From Streptomyces sp. Act143 (GTDB taxonomy: Bacteria > Actinomycetota > Actinomycetes > Streptomycetales > Streptomycetaceae), in assembly GCF_003143935.1 (NCBI RefSeq), contig NZ_QFRX01000001.1, positions 2,081,587 to 2,145,586 of the forward strand: a stretch of 64,000 bases of DNA, written 5' to 3'. The notes under the pieces were generated by a model that worked only from the letters and a program-made list of their open reading frames with translations, searched no databases and was not told where the DNA came from. Positions within the stretch are counted from its first letter, which is position 1. Each line of letters begins with the position of its first letter. Positions 53,678 through 58,551 of this stretch are shown piece after piece. Made by a program: the position numbers and the translations under genes.

Positions 53678-56600
53678 TCAGTACTCCACGTCCTGCTCGC
53701 GGCGACGGATGACCGTCACCTCGTCGCGCTGGTTGCCGGTGGGCCCCAGGTAGTTGAAGGCCCACGTCAACTGGGCGTAGCCGCCGACGAGATGGGTGGG
53801 CTTGAGCATGATCCGGGTCAGGGAGTTGTGGATGCCGCCCCGCTTGCCCGTCTTCTCCGTCTTGGGCACGCCGACGGTGCGTTCCTGGGCGTGGTTCATG
53901 TAGACCGTGCCGGGCGGCATCTTGTGGGAGACGATCGCGCGGGCGGTGATGACGCCGTTGCGGTTGACGGCCTCGATCCACTCGTTGTCCTTGACGCCGA
54001 TCGCTTCGGCGTCCTGCGGGGACATCCACACGGTCTGGCCGCCGCGGCCGAGGGTCATCATGTACAGGTTGTCCTGGTACTGGGAGTGGATGGCCCACTT
54101 GTTGTGCGGGGTGAGGAAGCGGACGGCGACCTCGCGGCCTTCCTTCACCGATCCCAGCTCCGGTTCCCCGTACAGGCGGTGCATGTTCAGCGGCGGCTTG
54201 TAGACGGGGAGGGCCTCGCCGACCTCGTGCAGCCAGTCGTGGTCGAGGAAGAAGTGCTGACGTCCCGTCAGGGTGTGCCAGGGCTTGAGGTGTTCGGTGT
54301 TGACGGTGAAGGCGGTGTAGCGCCGCCCGCCGGACTCGCTGCCCGACCACTCCGGTGAGGTGATGACCGGCACCGGGGCCGCCTGGGTGTCGGCGTACGT
54401 GATCCGCTTGCCCTCGTGCTCGGCGGCCAGGTGGGCCATCTCCTGCCCGGTCCGGCGCTCCAGGGTGTGGAAGCCCTGGGTGGCGAGGCGTCCGTTGGAG
54501 GTGCCGGACAGGGCGAGGATGGTGTCGCAGGCGCGGCGGGCGGTGTCGAGGCGGGGGCGGCCGTCGGCGACGCCGCCGCGCACGGTGCCGTTCTTCTCGC
54601 GCAGGTAGGCGACTTCCTCGCCGACGTCGAAGGTGACCGCCTTGGTGGTGACGCCGAGGGTGTCGACGAGCGGGCCGAGGGCGGCGAACTTCTCGCCGAT
54701 CGCCGTGTAGTCGCGCTCCACGACCGTGAGGTTGTACATCGTGCGCCCGGGCACCGGCTCGCACTCGCCCTTGCCCCAGTCGAGGGCGACACCGCCGGGC
54801 TGGGCCATCTCGCCGCCCGCGGTGTCGTGCTGGAGGGCGGTGGCGACCAGGTCCCGCCGCACTCCCAGGTGGTCCCGGGCCAGCTCGCTGAAGCGGCGGG
54901 CGAGGGTGAGGAAGGCGTCGTAGTCGGTGCGGGCCTGCCAGGGCGGGTCGATGGCCGGGGTGAACGCGTGCAGGAAGGGGTGCATGTCGGTGGACGACAG
55001 GTCGTGCTTCTCGTACCAGGTGGCGGCCGGCAGGACGACGTCGCTCAGCAGGGTCGTCGAGGTCATCCGGAAGTCCAGCGACAGCAGCAGGTCGAGCTTG
55101 CCCGCGGTGTCCTGCTCCCGCCACATGACGTCGCGCGGGGCGCAGCGGGGGCCGTCGTCGGGGAGGTTGGAGTGGGTGCCCAGCAGGTGCTTGAGGAAGT
55201 ACTCGTTGCCCTTGGAGCTGGAGCCGAACAGGTTGGCCCGCCAGACGGTCATCACGCGCGGCCAGTTCTGCGGGGCGTCCGGGTCCTCGGTCGCCAACTC
55301 CAGTGTTCCGGCCTTGAGTTCCTCGACCGCGCTCGCCACCGGGTCCTCACGTTCGCCGAGTTCGAGCGGGTTGCGGTCGAAGGTCGGGTACGACGGCATC
55401 CAGCCCATGCGTGCCGACGCGGCGAGGCAGTCGGCGCCGGTCATGCCGGCGAAGCGGCCGTCACCGAGCGGTGAGGCGAGGGACTCGGTGGGCAGGGTGT
55501 CGTACCGCCACTGGTCGGTGTGCAGATAGAACCAGCCCGCGCCGATCATCTGGCGCGGCGGACGCGACCAGTCGGAGGCGGCGGCGAGGGTGGCCCAGCC
55601 AGTGACCGGGCGGCACTTCTCCTGGCCCACGTAGTGGCCCCAGCCGCCGCCGTTGCGGCCCTGGCAGCCGGTCAGGGTGAGCAGGGCGAGGAAGGCCCGG
55701 TAGATCGTCTCGGAGTGGAACCAGTGGTTGGTCCCGGCACCCATCAGGATCATGCAGCGGCCCTCGGAGCGCCGCGCGGTGTCGGCGAACTCCCGTGCCA
55801 CACGGATGGCTTGGGCGGCGGGCACGGACGTCAGCGTCTCCTGCCAGCCGGGGGTGCCGGGCGTGTCGGCGTCCTCGTACGAGGCGGGCCAGCGGCCGGG
55901 CAGGCCGACCCGGGCCACCGCGTACTGGGCGAGCATCAGGTCGTACACCGTGGTGACGAGCCGTCCGCCGATCCGGCGCACGGGCACCCCGCGGGTGACC
56001 GTGCCCTCGGCGCCCTCCTCGAAGCGGGGCAGCACGATCTCGGCGGTCTCGCCGTCGAGCGCGTAGAGGCTGAGGCGGGGCACGGTGTCGCCGAGGTCGA
56101 GGTTCCAGTCCGGTTCGCTTCCCCAGCGGTGGCCCAACGTGCCGTTGGGGACGGTGGGTTGACCGGTGGTGTCGTCGAGGAGGACGGGCTTCCACTGGGC
56201 GTTCTCGACGTCCTGGCCGAGATCGGCGGCGTTGAGGAACTTGTGCGGGACGAGTCCGGCGTCCGACTCCTTCAGGGTCACCAGGAAGGGCAGGTCGGTG
56301 AACTTGCGTACGTAGTCCGCGAAGAACGGTGTCTCGCGGTCGACGAAGAACTCCTTGAGGATGACGTGGCCCATCGCCAGGGCCAGCGCGCCGTCCGTGC
56401 CGGGGTGCGGGTGCATCCACTCGTCGGCGAACTTGGTGTTGTCGGCGTAGTCCGGGGAGACGGCGACGACCTTCTGGCCGCGGTAGCGGGCCTCGGTCAT
56501 CCAGTGCGCGTCAGGGGTGCGGGTGACGGGGACGTTGGAGCCCCACATCATCAGATAGGCGGCGTCCCACCAGTCGCCGGACTCCGGGACGTCGGTCTGG

Positions 56601-57325
56601 TCGCCGAAGACCTGCGGGGAGGCCACCGGGAGGTCGGCGTACCAGTCGTAGAACGACAGCATCGGGGCGCCGATGAGGGAGTGGAAGCGGGCGCCCGCCG
56701 CGTGCGAGGCCATCGACATCGCCGGGATCGGGGAGAAGCCGGCGATGCGGTCGGGGCCGTAGGTCTTGATGGTGTGGACGTGCGCGGCGGCGACGATCTC
56801 CACCGCCTCCTCCCAACTGGCGCGCACCAGGCCGCCCTTGCCGCGGGCCTGCTGGTAGCGGCGGCGGCGCTCGGGGTCGTTCTGGATATCCGCCCAGGCC
56901 GCGACCGGGTCGCCCAGGCGGGCCTTGGCCTCGCGGTACATCTCCAGCAGGGCGCCGCGGACATGCGGGTAGCGCACCCGGGTCGGCGAGTAGGTGTACC
57001 AGGAGAAGGACGCCCCGCGCGGGCAGCCGCGCGGCTCGTACTCGGGGCGGTCCGGGCCGACGCTGGGATAGTCGGTGGCCTGGGTTTCCCAGGTGATGAT
57101 GCCGTCCTTGACGTACACCTTCCACCGGCAGGAACCCGTGCAGTTCACCCCGTGCGTGGAGTGCACGACCTTGTCGTGGCTCCAGCGGTCCCGGTAGAAG
57201 GCCTCGGCCTCGCGGCCACCGGTGCGGGTCACCGTCCGCAGGTCGTCGGAGACCGTGTCGCGGCTGAAGAACCGCCCGGCCTTGATCAGGAGGTCGGCGG
57301 GGTCTCCGCCCGGCTTCTTCTGCAA
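53678..57325 (-). CDS. narG: respiratory nitrate reductase alpha subunit
   Basis: A 1215-residue molybdenum bis-MGD catalytic subunit reducing nitrate to nitrite in the cytoplasm. The FS0 cluster ligands are His58, Cys62, Cys66 and Cys101 (H-x3-C-x3-C-x34-C). YSPTRVRYPHVRG, MSFYDWYADLP-like segments with the Mo-coordinating Asp region (PESGDWWDAAYLMMWGSNVPVTRTPDAHW) and NHWFHSETIYRAFLAL are present. The TTG start at 57325 has GAGGAG five bases upstream. It is the first gene of narGHJI, reading away from the motif-rich intergenic region. Confidence 0.95.
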   Translation of the reverse strand: MQKKPGGDPADLLIKAGRFFSRDTVSDDLRTVTRTGGREAEAFYRDRWSHDKVVHSTHGVNCTGSCRWKVYVKDGIITWETQATDYPSVGPDRPEYEPRGCPRGASFSWYTYSPTRVRYPHVRGALLEMYREAKARLGDPVAAWADIQNDPERRRRYQQARGKGGLVRASWEEAVEIVAAAHVHTIKTYGPDRIAGFSPIPAMSMASHAAGARFHSLIGAPMLSFYDWYADLPVASPQVFGDQTDVPESGDWWDAAYLMMWGSNVPVTRTPDAHWMTEARYRGQKVVAVSPDYADNTKFADEWMHPHPGTDGALALAMGHVILKEFFVDRETPFFADYVRKFTDLPFLVTLKESDAGLVPHKFLNAADLGQDVENAQWKPVLLDDTTGQPTVPNGTLGHRWGSEPDWNLDLGDTVPRLSLYALDGETAEIVLPRFEEGAEGTVTRGVPVRRIGGRLVTTVYDLMLAQYAVARVGLPGRWPASYEDADTPGTPGWQETLTSVPAAQAIRVAREFADTARRSEGRCMILMGAGTNHWFHSETIYRAFLALLTLTGCQGRNGGGWGHYVGQEKCRPVTGWATLAAASDWSRPPRQMIGAGWFYLHTDQWRYDTLPTESLASPLGDGRFAGMTGADCLAASARMGWMPSYPTFDRNPLELGEREDPVASAVEELKAGTLELATEDPDAPQNWPRVMTVWRANLFGSSSKGNEYFLKHLLGTHSNLPDDGPRCAPRDVMWREQDTAGKLDLLLSLDFRMTSTTLLSDVVLPAATWYEKHDLSSTDMHPFLHAFTPAIDPPWQARTDYDAFLTLARRFSELARDHLGVRRDLVATALQHDTAGGEMAQPGGVALDWGKGECEPVPGRTMYNLTVVERDYTAIGEKFAALGPLVDTLGVTTKAVTFDVGEEVAYLREKNGTVRGGVADGRPRLDTARRACDTILALSGTSNGRLATQGFHTLERRTGQEMAHLAAEHEGKRITYADTQAAPVPVITSPEWSGSESGGRRYTAFTVNTEHLKPWHTLTGRQHFFLDHDWLHEVGEALPVYKPPLNMHRLYGEPELGSVKEGREVAVRFLTPHNKWAIHSQYQDNLYMMTLGRGGQTVWMSPQDAEAIGVKDNEWIEAVNRNGVITARAIVSHKMPPGTVYMNHAQERTVGVPKTEKTGKRGGIHNSLTRIMLKPTHLVGGYAQLTWAFNYLGPTGNQRDEVTVIRRREQDVEY

Positions 57326-57446
57326 CGGGGCTCCTCAAACACGTCGCGGCACACGACATACGGCTCTGGAACGACGCCCTACGCGTCGGACTGCGCGCCG
57401 GGACGATCACGTCATCGACCCTAGGAGCGCACGATGGGCCGGAGCA

Positions 57447-57553
57447 GGCGCCAATGGTCCCGGTCGGCAGGGACCATCGACCGGATTTGCGGCGGGGGGC
57501 CATTGGTCCCGCGGGAAGGTCCGGAGGGCCGTTGGTCCCTCGGGAGGGGACCA
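57447..57553. promoter_or_regulatory. cluster of three 15-bp imperfect palindromes upstream of narG and ywiC
   Basis: GGCGCCAATGGTCCC (57447-57461), GGGGCCATTGGTCCC (57496-57510) and AGGGCCGTTGGTCCC (57525-57539) share the half-site TGGTCCC and near-symmetric left arms. Inverted half-sites GGGACCA lie at 57470-57476 and 57547-57553. The general shape (GGG-x-CCA/TGG-x-CCC) resembles DevR/OsdR-type dormancy boxes, but exact identity is not proven. Confidence 0.6.
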
Positions 57554-57606
57554 TTACCGGCCCGGGGGTCACCGACCGGGTGGCAGGCTGGGACGGACGA
57601 CGACAG

Positions 57607-57796
57607 GACGTGCGGGCGCGGGACGGCTGTGGACCGCGGCCGTACCGCGGCCGGGACGTGCGGGCGCGGGACGGCTGCGGGACCGCGGCCGAGACGTGCG
57701 GGCGCGGGACGGCTGCGGGACCGCGGCCGAGACGTGCGGGCGCGGCACGACTGCGAGACGGCTGCGGGACCGCGGCCGGGACGTGGGAGCGGAGGG
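57607..57796. repeat. 38-bp tandem repeat (minisatellite) upstream of ywiC
   Basis: Copies begin GACGTGCGGGCGCGG at 57607, 57655, 57693 and 57731, with a partial copy at 57780. The 57655 and 57693 copies are identical over 38 bp. The 57607 copy (48 bp) and the 57731 copy (49 bp) carry internal duplications of ACCGCGGCCG or GAGACGGCTGC type. The array ends at the ywiC ribosome-binding site (GGAGGG at 57791-57796). Confidence 0.85.
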
Positions 57797-57801
57797 ACGG
57801 C

Positions 57802-58551
57802 ATGGCTTCGCGGGCGATACGGCGCTGGCTGCCCGGTCAGCACGGGGCGTGGGCGATGCTGCTCGTGCCGTTCCTGGCGGGCATGCTGCTCGCCGAGCCG
57901 ACCCCCTGGCACGCCGTCCTGCTCCTCGCGTGGCTCCTCGCCTACCTCGCCTCCTACCACGTGCAGCAGTGGCTGCGGCTGCGCCGCAACTCCCGCAATC
58001 CCAGGGCGGCGGCCCGCCACACCGTGCCCGCGGCGGTGTTCACGGCGGCCCTGCTGCCGCCCGGTCTCGCGCTGGTCCGGCACGCGCCGTGGCTGCTGCT
58101 CGCCGCGGCCGCCGCGGTCCCGTTCCTCGCCGCCAACTCCTGGTACGCCTGGCGCAATCAGGAACGGTCCGTGGTCAACGGGCTCGCCGCGGTCGTCCCG
58201 GCCTGCGGCATGCTGCCGGTCGCCGCGCTGCTCGGGGACGGCATTTGGGCGCAGACGTGGCGTCCGGCGCTGGTCTGCCTGCTGTACTTCGCGGGGACCG
58301 TGCCGTACGTGAAGACCATGATCCGGGAGCGCGGCAGCGATACGTACCGGTGGGCCTCGGGGCTGTACCACGCCGCCGCGCTCGTGGTGGCGGGGCTGCT
58401 CTCGCCCTGGCTCGTGCTGTTCTTCGGGGTGTGTCTGGCGCGGGCCGTGGTGATGCCGGCGCTCGGCCGGGTGCGGATCGCGGTGGTGGGGGCGGTGGAG
58501 GTCGTGCTGTCGCTGCTGCTTCTGGCGGTGCTGCTGCCGGTGTACGGCTGA
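57802..58551 (+). CDS. YwiC-like membrane protein
   Basis: A 249-residue integral membrane protein with about eight helices. The opening RRWLPGQHGAWAMLLVPFLAGML, SWYAWRNQERSVVNGLAAV and YVKTMIRERGSDTYRWASGLYHAAAL are typical of the YwiC family. The function is unknown, but Bacillus ywiC also lies by the nar genes, so an anaerobic or nitrate-linked role is a fair guess. ATG 57802 has GGAGGG five bases upstream, immediately after the 38-bp repeats. Confidence 0.85.
   Translation: MASRAIRRWLPGQHGAWAMLLVPFLAGMLLAEPTPWHAVLLLAWLLAYLASYHVQQWLRLRRNSRNPRAAARHTVPAAVFTAALLPPGLALVRHAPWLLLAAAAAVPFLAANSWYAWRNQERSVVNGLAAVVPACGMLPVAALLGDGIWAQTWRPALVCLLYFAGTVPYVKTMIRERGSDTYRWASGLYHAAALVVAGLLSPWLVLFFGVCLARAVVMPALGRVRIAVVGAVEVVLSLLLLAVLLPVYG

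Follow-up and report, generated by a model that had tools for sequence, protein, structure and literature searches.

A conserved two-box element resembling DevR/OsdR sites between the divergent narG and ywiC genes of Streptomyces

A cluster of short repeated boxes between narG and ywiC probably represents a divergent promoter switch, at which a regulator of the DevR/OsdR family would bind paired boxes in the class II position and activate both narGHJI and ywiC. In the window (that is, the whole 64-kb stretch of DNA analyzed here), narG (53678-57325, minus strand, TTG start) encodes a respiratory nitrate reductase alpha subunit of 1215 aa, and the divergent ywiC (57802-58551, plus strand) encodes a YwiC-like protein (PF14256).

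A word scan of the window located exact plus-strand copies of TGGTCCC at 57455, 57504 and 57533 and of GGGACCA at 57470 and 57547, all five within 99 bp (57455-57553) of the narG/ywiC intergenic region. The three TGGTCCC copies are held by the near-palindromes GGCGCCAATGGTCCC, GGGCCATTGGTCCC and GGGCCGTTGGTCCC. A preliminary description of this DNA had reported three such near-palindromes and two GGGACCA half-sites, and all of them were recovered at exact coordinates. Each of the two 'half-sites' is a weak box in its own right, read on the opposite strand (boxes a and d below), and of the interval 57326-57801 to which the cluster had been assigned, the motifs occupy 57447-57560, the remainder being leader and tandem repeat. 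TGGTCCC was not enriched over the whole window (16 observed vs 13.5 expected in 64 kb), and a cluster of at least five copies within 107 bp did not occur in any of 2000 simulations of the 476-bp region. When any 7-mer was counted, clusters of at least five within 107 bp appeared in 2 of 2000 simulations of this region and in 1 of 40 order-1 Markov simulations of 64 kb. A chance or composition artefact might be suspected because the region is GC-rich and adjoins a tandem repeat in which a 7-mer is clustered as well (GCGGGAC, the sole other 7-mer cluster of such size in the real window). However, the simulations of TGGTCCC argue against it, and it is refuted by the conservation of the box pair in all 19 distinct narG-ywiC regions; we give this explanation practically no weight.

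Five boxes could be distinguished, with centre spacings of 22, 27, 29 and 21 bp (e-d, d-c, c-b and b-a, respectively). Box e (GGGACCATTGGCGC, 57448-57461, minus strand) is TSS-proximal for narG, its centre (57454.5) lying 31 nt before a putative narG -10 element (TAGGGT, 57418-57423, minus strand), that is, at about -43. It pairs with box d (GGGACCATCGACCG, 57470-57483, plus strand), the two centres being 22 bp apart. On the opposite side, box a (GGGACCATTACCGG, 57547-57560, plus strand) pairs at 21 bp with box b (GGGACCAACGGCCC, 57526-57539, minus strand). The centre of box a (57553.5) is 30 nt before a putative ywiC -10 element (CAGGCT, 57584-57589, plus strand), and the position of this element with respect to box a is shared by S. 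justiciae (L050). Box c (GGGACCAATGGCCC, 57497-57510, minus strand) is an extra box. When its centre precedes the -10 hexamer by 30-31 nt, a box is located at about -42 to -43, which is where class II sites lie. The five boxes are closely packed, with pairs at 21 and 22 bp, and, relying on the inferred -10 elements, the TSS-proximal box overlaps the -35 position in 18 of the 19 regions. Most relatives have a single pair. In S. justiciae, box c and the tandem repeat are both missing and the other four boxes (a, b, d and e) are present. The window looks like a doubled two-box unit in which each promoter has its own pair, with a fifth box added, the order of these events being presumed. The GC-rich tandem repeat itself (57607-57801; a 38-bp unit in approximately three copies plus degenerate ones) sits between the putative ywiC -10 element and the ywiC start codon and would add approximately 190 nt to the ywiC leader.

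To define the conservation of this arrangement, we collected 21 divergent narG-ywiC regions, including those from named loci, of which 19 were distinct (the duplicates L051/L134 and L105/L136 were each counted once). The search for YwiC covered 392 genomes of the genus (25 matches) and, earlier and with a laxer cut-off, 199 genomes (15 matches). The pattern GGTC-N9/10-GGGAC, equal to two half-sites 21-22 bp apart, was present in all 19 distinct regions, and box e is its GGGAC member. In 18 of them, with L170 as the exception, the pair was accompanied by a TANNNT, 30-31 nt away from the centre of the box on the side of narG. Shuffled regions (500 rounds) contained the pair in a mean of 0.11 of 19 regions and never the full element. 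A comparison of 63 narG upstream regions (17 ywiC-linked and 46 other; 31 from the 80 named loci and 32 from further genomes) showed the pair in 1 of the 46 others (L113) and the pair plus -10 in none of them. Thus, conservation in related nar promoters, on which the preliminary description had made its proposal depend, holds for narG genes divergent to ywiC but does not extend to other nar paralogues. Outside Streptomyces, neither the pair nor an adjacent narG was found at any of 20 ywiC loci (19 genomes). By eye, a GGGACC box was seen upstream of ywiC in four close, near-full-length loci without adjacent narG (L131, L132, L135 and L163), and none was seen upstream of the more distant or partial ywiC loci lacking an adjacent narG.

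On the narG side, what is kept is the distance, as the bases that separate the box from the -10 show poor conservation. For ywiC, a loose -10 (CANNNT, TANNNT or GATNNT) is present at 30-31 nt in many rows, not all, and this side is weaker. Seven other narG promoters, including that of the narG2-like gene of G246 (an S. coelicolor-like genome), have a single GGG(A/C)C box with such spacing and a looser -10; in G246, the published narG2 site AGGGACCTTCGGCCCC sits 31 nt from TAGCGT. These distances bear on another reading, in which a repressor or some other factor recognizing GGGACC palindromes would occupy the boxes and the class II spacing would be incidental. Sequence does not reveal whether control is positive or negative, which favors such a reading, but the constant 30-31 nt to the narG -10 across poorly conserved sequence and the published precedent of OsdR/DevR at narG2 speak against it, and we consider it improbable.

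The OsdR consensus is a 16-nt sequence, AGGGCCGATCGGCCCT, and the narG2 site mentioned above is listed among the OsdR sites (Urem et al., 2016; PMC5069765). From the 25 distinct S. coelicolor sites printed there, we built an OsdR matrix. Box b (as the 16-mer 57525-57540) ranked first among all positions of the 64 kb, with 16.9 bits vs 10.0 bits for the next, so that by sequence it is an OsdR-type box. Boxes c, d and e scored 8.0, 4.2 and 3.7 bits and box a below 2 bits; 71 positions of the window scored at least 4 bits. By the matrix alone, the promoter-proximal boxes are not classified as OsdR-type, and the case for boxes e, d and a is carried by conservation because of these low scores. Among all 80 named loci, 6 of the 25 from Streptomyces and 6 of the 55 others had a match of at least 8 bits at the narG promoter, with narG starts approximated by the start of the match. 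The strict matrix alone therefore misses most narG promoters. Genome-wide, the pair pattern was not enriched in the host (18 strand matches vs 32 for the reversed control). A scan with GGGACNNNNGGTCCC allowing three mismatches was uninformative (433 matches, below the 663 expected). Separately, narG of S. triticisoli (L110) has a perfect AGGGCCGATCGGCCCT approximately 225-237 nt upstream, within a longer inverted repeat. OsdR boxes of 16.9 and 16.7 bits lie 31 nt before CAGGGT at narG of Streptomyces sp. CNH099 (L054) and S. aculeolatus (L101), respectively; neither locus contains a ywiC match, and L101 holds little upstream DNA.

The host genome has three narG genes, and the nearest named relative of the narG studied here is that of S. 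justiciae (96% over 120 aa). When 62 narG rows were placed in a tree, from which L101 (112 aa) was left out, the 17 ywiC-linked rows formed one clade (SH-aLRT 100). Its sister clade contains a second narG of the host and a 78% copy from G246, which is of the Nar1 type by inferred position, and the narG2-like copy of G246, carrying the published site, belongs to another clade. Candidate DevR/OsdR-type sites therefore occur in no fewer than two narG lineages, since the ywiC-linked and the narG2-like genes fall into separate clades.

On the basis of the observed motifs, spacing, conservation and regulator and kinase genes, we infer binding at the candidate sites, phosphorylation, activation as the sign of control, and the signal. 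A response regulator of the DevR/OsdR family (NarL-type) would, as phosphorylated dimers, bind paired boxes 21-22 bp apart, approximately two helical turns. Box e, near -43, would stand in for the -35 element and recruit RNA polymerase to narGHJI, box a would have the equivalent role for ywiC on the opposite side, and boxes d, b and c would be their partners in cooperative binding. A haem-GAF kinase of the OsdK/DevS type would phosphorylate the regulator upon a change in O2 or NO, so that nitrate respiration and YwiC would be induced jointly. The narG-ywiC promoter would in this way be linked to hypoxia or dormancy.

A response regulator and a haem-GAF kinase of the cognate type are present in the host genome (9.6 Mb). 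The response regulator in L154 (12736-13431) has M. tuberculosis DevR as its best match among solved structures (3c3w, E 6e-79), the kinase gene adjoining it matches DevS haem-GAF structures, and boxes of 20.5 and 21.7 bits lie upstream. The genome has 38 Usp matches, many of them at C1:679-764 kb, and the OsdR matrix at a threshold of at least 11 bits gave 32 matches in 120 kb of this Usp-rich area (L149-L154) vs 1 in the 64-kb window. The host's own dormancy island also holds a second DevR/OsdR-like regulator (76%; G000 C1:732913-733554) and a second GAF-domain HisKA_3 kinase of similar build (L153:9458-11239). Taken together, the site matrix, the -10 spacing, the conservation at narG-ywiC and these regulators and kinases bear out the DevR/OsdR-type form suggested at the outset.

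Which member of the family binds is a separate question. We searched for OsdR in 22 genomes, 16 of which have narG-ywiC, taking at least 70% identity as island-type. Island-type OsdR was found in 12 of the 16 (E 1e-55) and was missing at this threshold from G093, G289, G304 and G257, which have a 64-66% paralogue alone; OsdR thus does not accompany the element everywhere. This paralogue is present in all 16 genomes, is split off in the tree as a separate clade (6 rows, support 100/100) and retains the recognition-helix residues AEKT-KN. The assignment to the DevR/OsdR family is firmer than the choice of member, because OsdR is absent in 4 of 16 genomes whereas the paralogue occurs in all of them with the recognition helix kept. 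It may be, although this is somewhat less likely than not, that this orphan paralogue is the main regulator, with sites and mechanism unchanged and OsdR secondary or absent. The host's own copy (C1:5125813-5126448) is probably of the SCO3818 type. SCO3818 is an in vitro substrate for phosphorylation by OsdK, and its involvement in the nitrogen-oxide cycle was suggested earlier (PMC5069765, PMC9739842, PMC5133688). The boxes of narG-ywiC promoters also drift from GGGCCGATCGGCCC, which is a further point for the paralogue. On the other hand, it is near-universal, being found in 5 of the 6 listed genomes without narG-ywiC as well, so its presence alone says little, and box b of the window is a strong OsdR box. 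Genomes that keep the element with only the orphan-type regulator offer a clean way to ask which DevR paralogue works. A local NarL-type two-component system lies close to the nar operon, at a distance of approximately 8 kb (regulator C1:2146411-2147178, kinase C1:2147266-2148432). However, the gene calls around narG-ywiC in G093, G304, G083 and G238 contain no obvious counterpart beside ywiC, its place being taken by an LPG-synthase-like gene, and the box pair is kept there, which makes involvement of this system very unlikely. In four genomes (L264-L267), a gene for an LPG-synthase-like membrane protein lies near ywiC.

Our preferred reading, DevR/OsdR-family control from paired boxes, would connect the DevR/OsdR system, by way of a promoter layout that is conserved, with the uncharacterized YwiC and with a nar operon located away from the dormancy island. 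It would also help to account for the way in which aerobic spore-formers make ready for the loss of oxygen. More tentatively, Streptomyces might hold a further type of respiratory nitrate reductase, with narG divergent to ywiC and sister to Nar1. Its two-box switch of the DevR family would work in both directions and be read chiefly by the widespread orphan paralogue of DevR rather than by OsdR. If so, YwiC would belong to the response to hypoxia and NO, among whose members it has not been listed so far. No description of the narG-ywiC promoter was found in the literature searched, which is not proof of absence, and YwiC was not mentioned with narGHJI or nitrate reductase among the matches listed there.

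OsdR/DevR control of narG2 is already known (PMC5069765, PMC4766573): DevR binds upstream of narG2 in vitro, the narG2 transcript is decreased in devS/devR mutants (PMC4766573), and hypoxic induction of Nar2 through OsdK was described in a 2019 paper, as cited in PMC9739842. The narG-ywiC promoter is therefore a well-supported new example of a known control and not a new principle. Like the window, S. coelicolor narG2 (SCO0216) belongs to a respiratory nar operon and has a box of the form GGGACC-NN-CGGCCC, whose centre is followed at 31 nt by TAGCGT in G246, the S. coelicolor-like genome; it differs in its narG clade, its one recognized box, its placement next to osdRK within the dormancy island and the absence of a divergent ywiC. 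With regard to the Streptomyces OsdR regulon in general, box b fits the matrix and the host has an osdRK-like operon and a box-rich Usp island, whereas the window boxes are of the GGGACCA type, with e, d and a scoring low. In M. tuberculosis, close-packed DevR boxes, the proximal one over -35, are bound cooperatively at the divergent tgs1-Rv3131 promoters, which share adjacent strong and weak boxes (PMC3029386). The likeness to the window lies in the two adjacent boxes (a strong and a weak one), the divergent promoters and the proximal box over -35, and the difference in the genes controlled and in the doubled two-box unit plus fifth box of the window.
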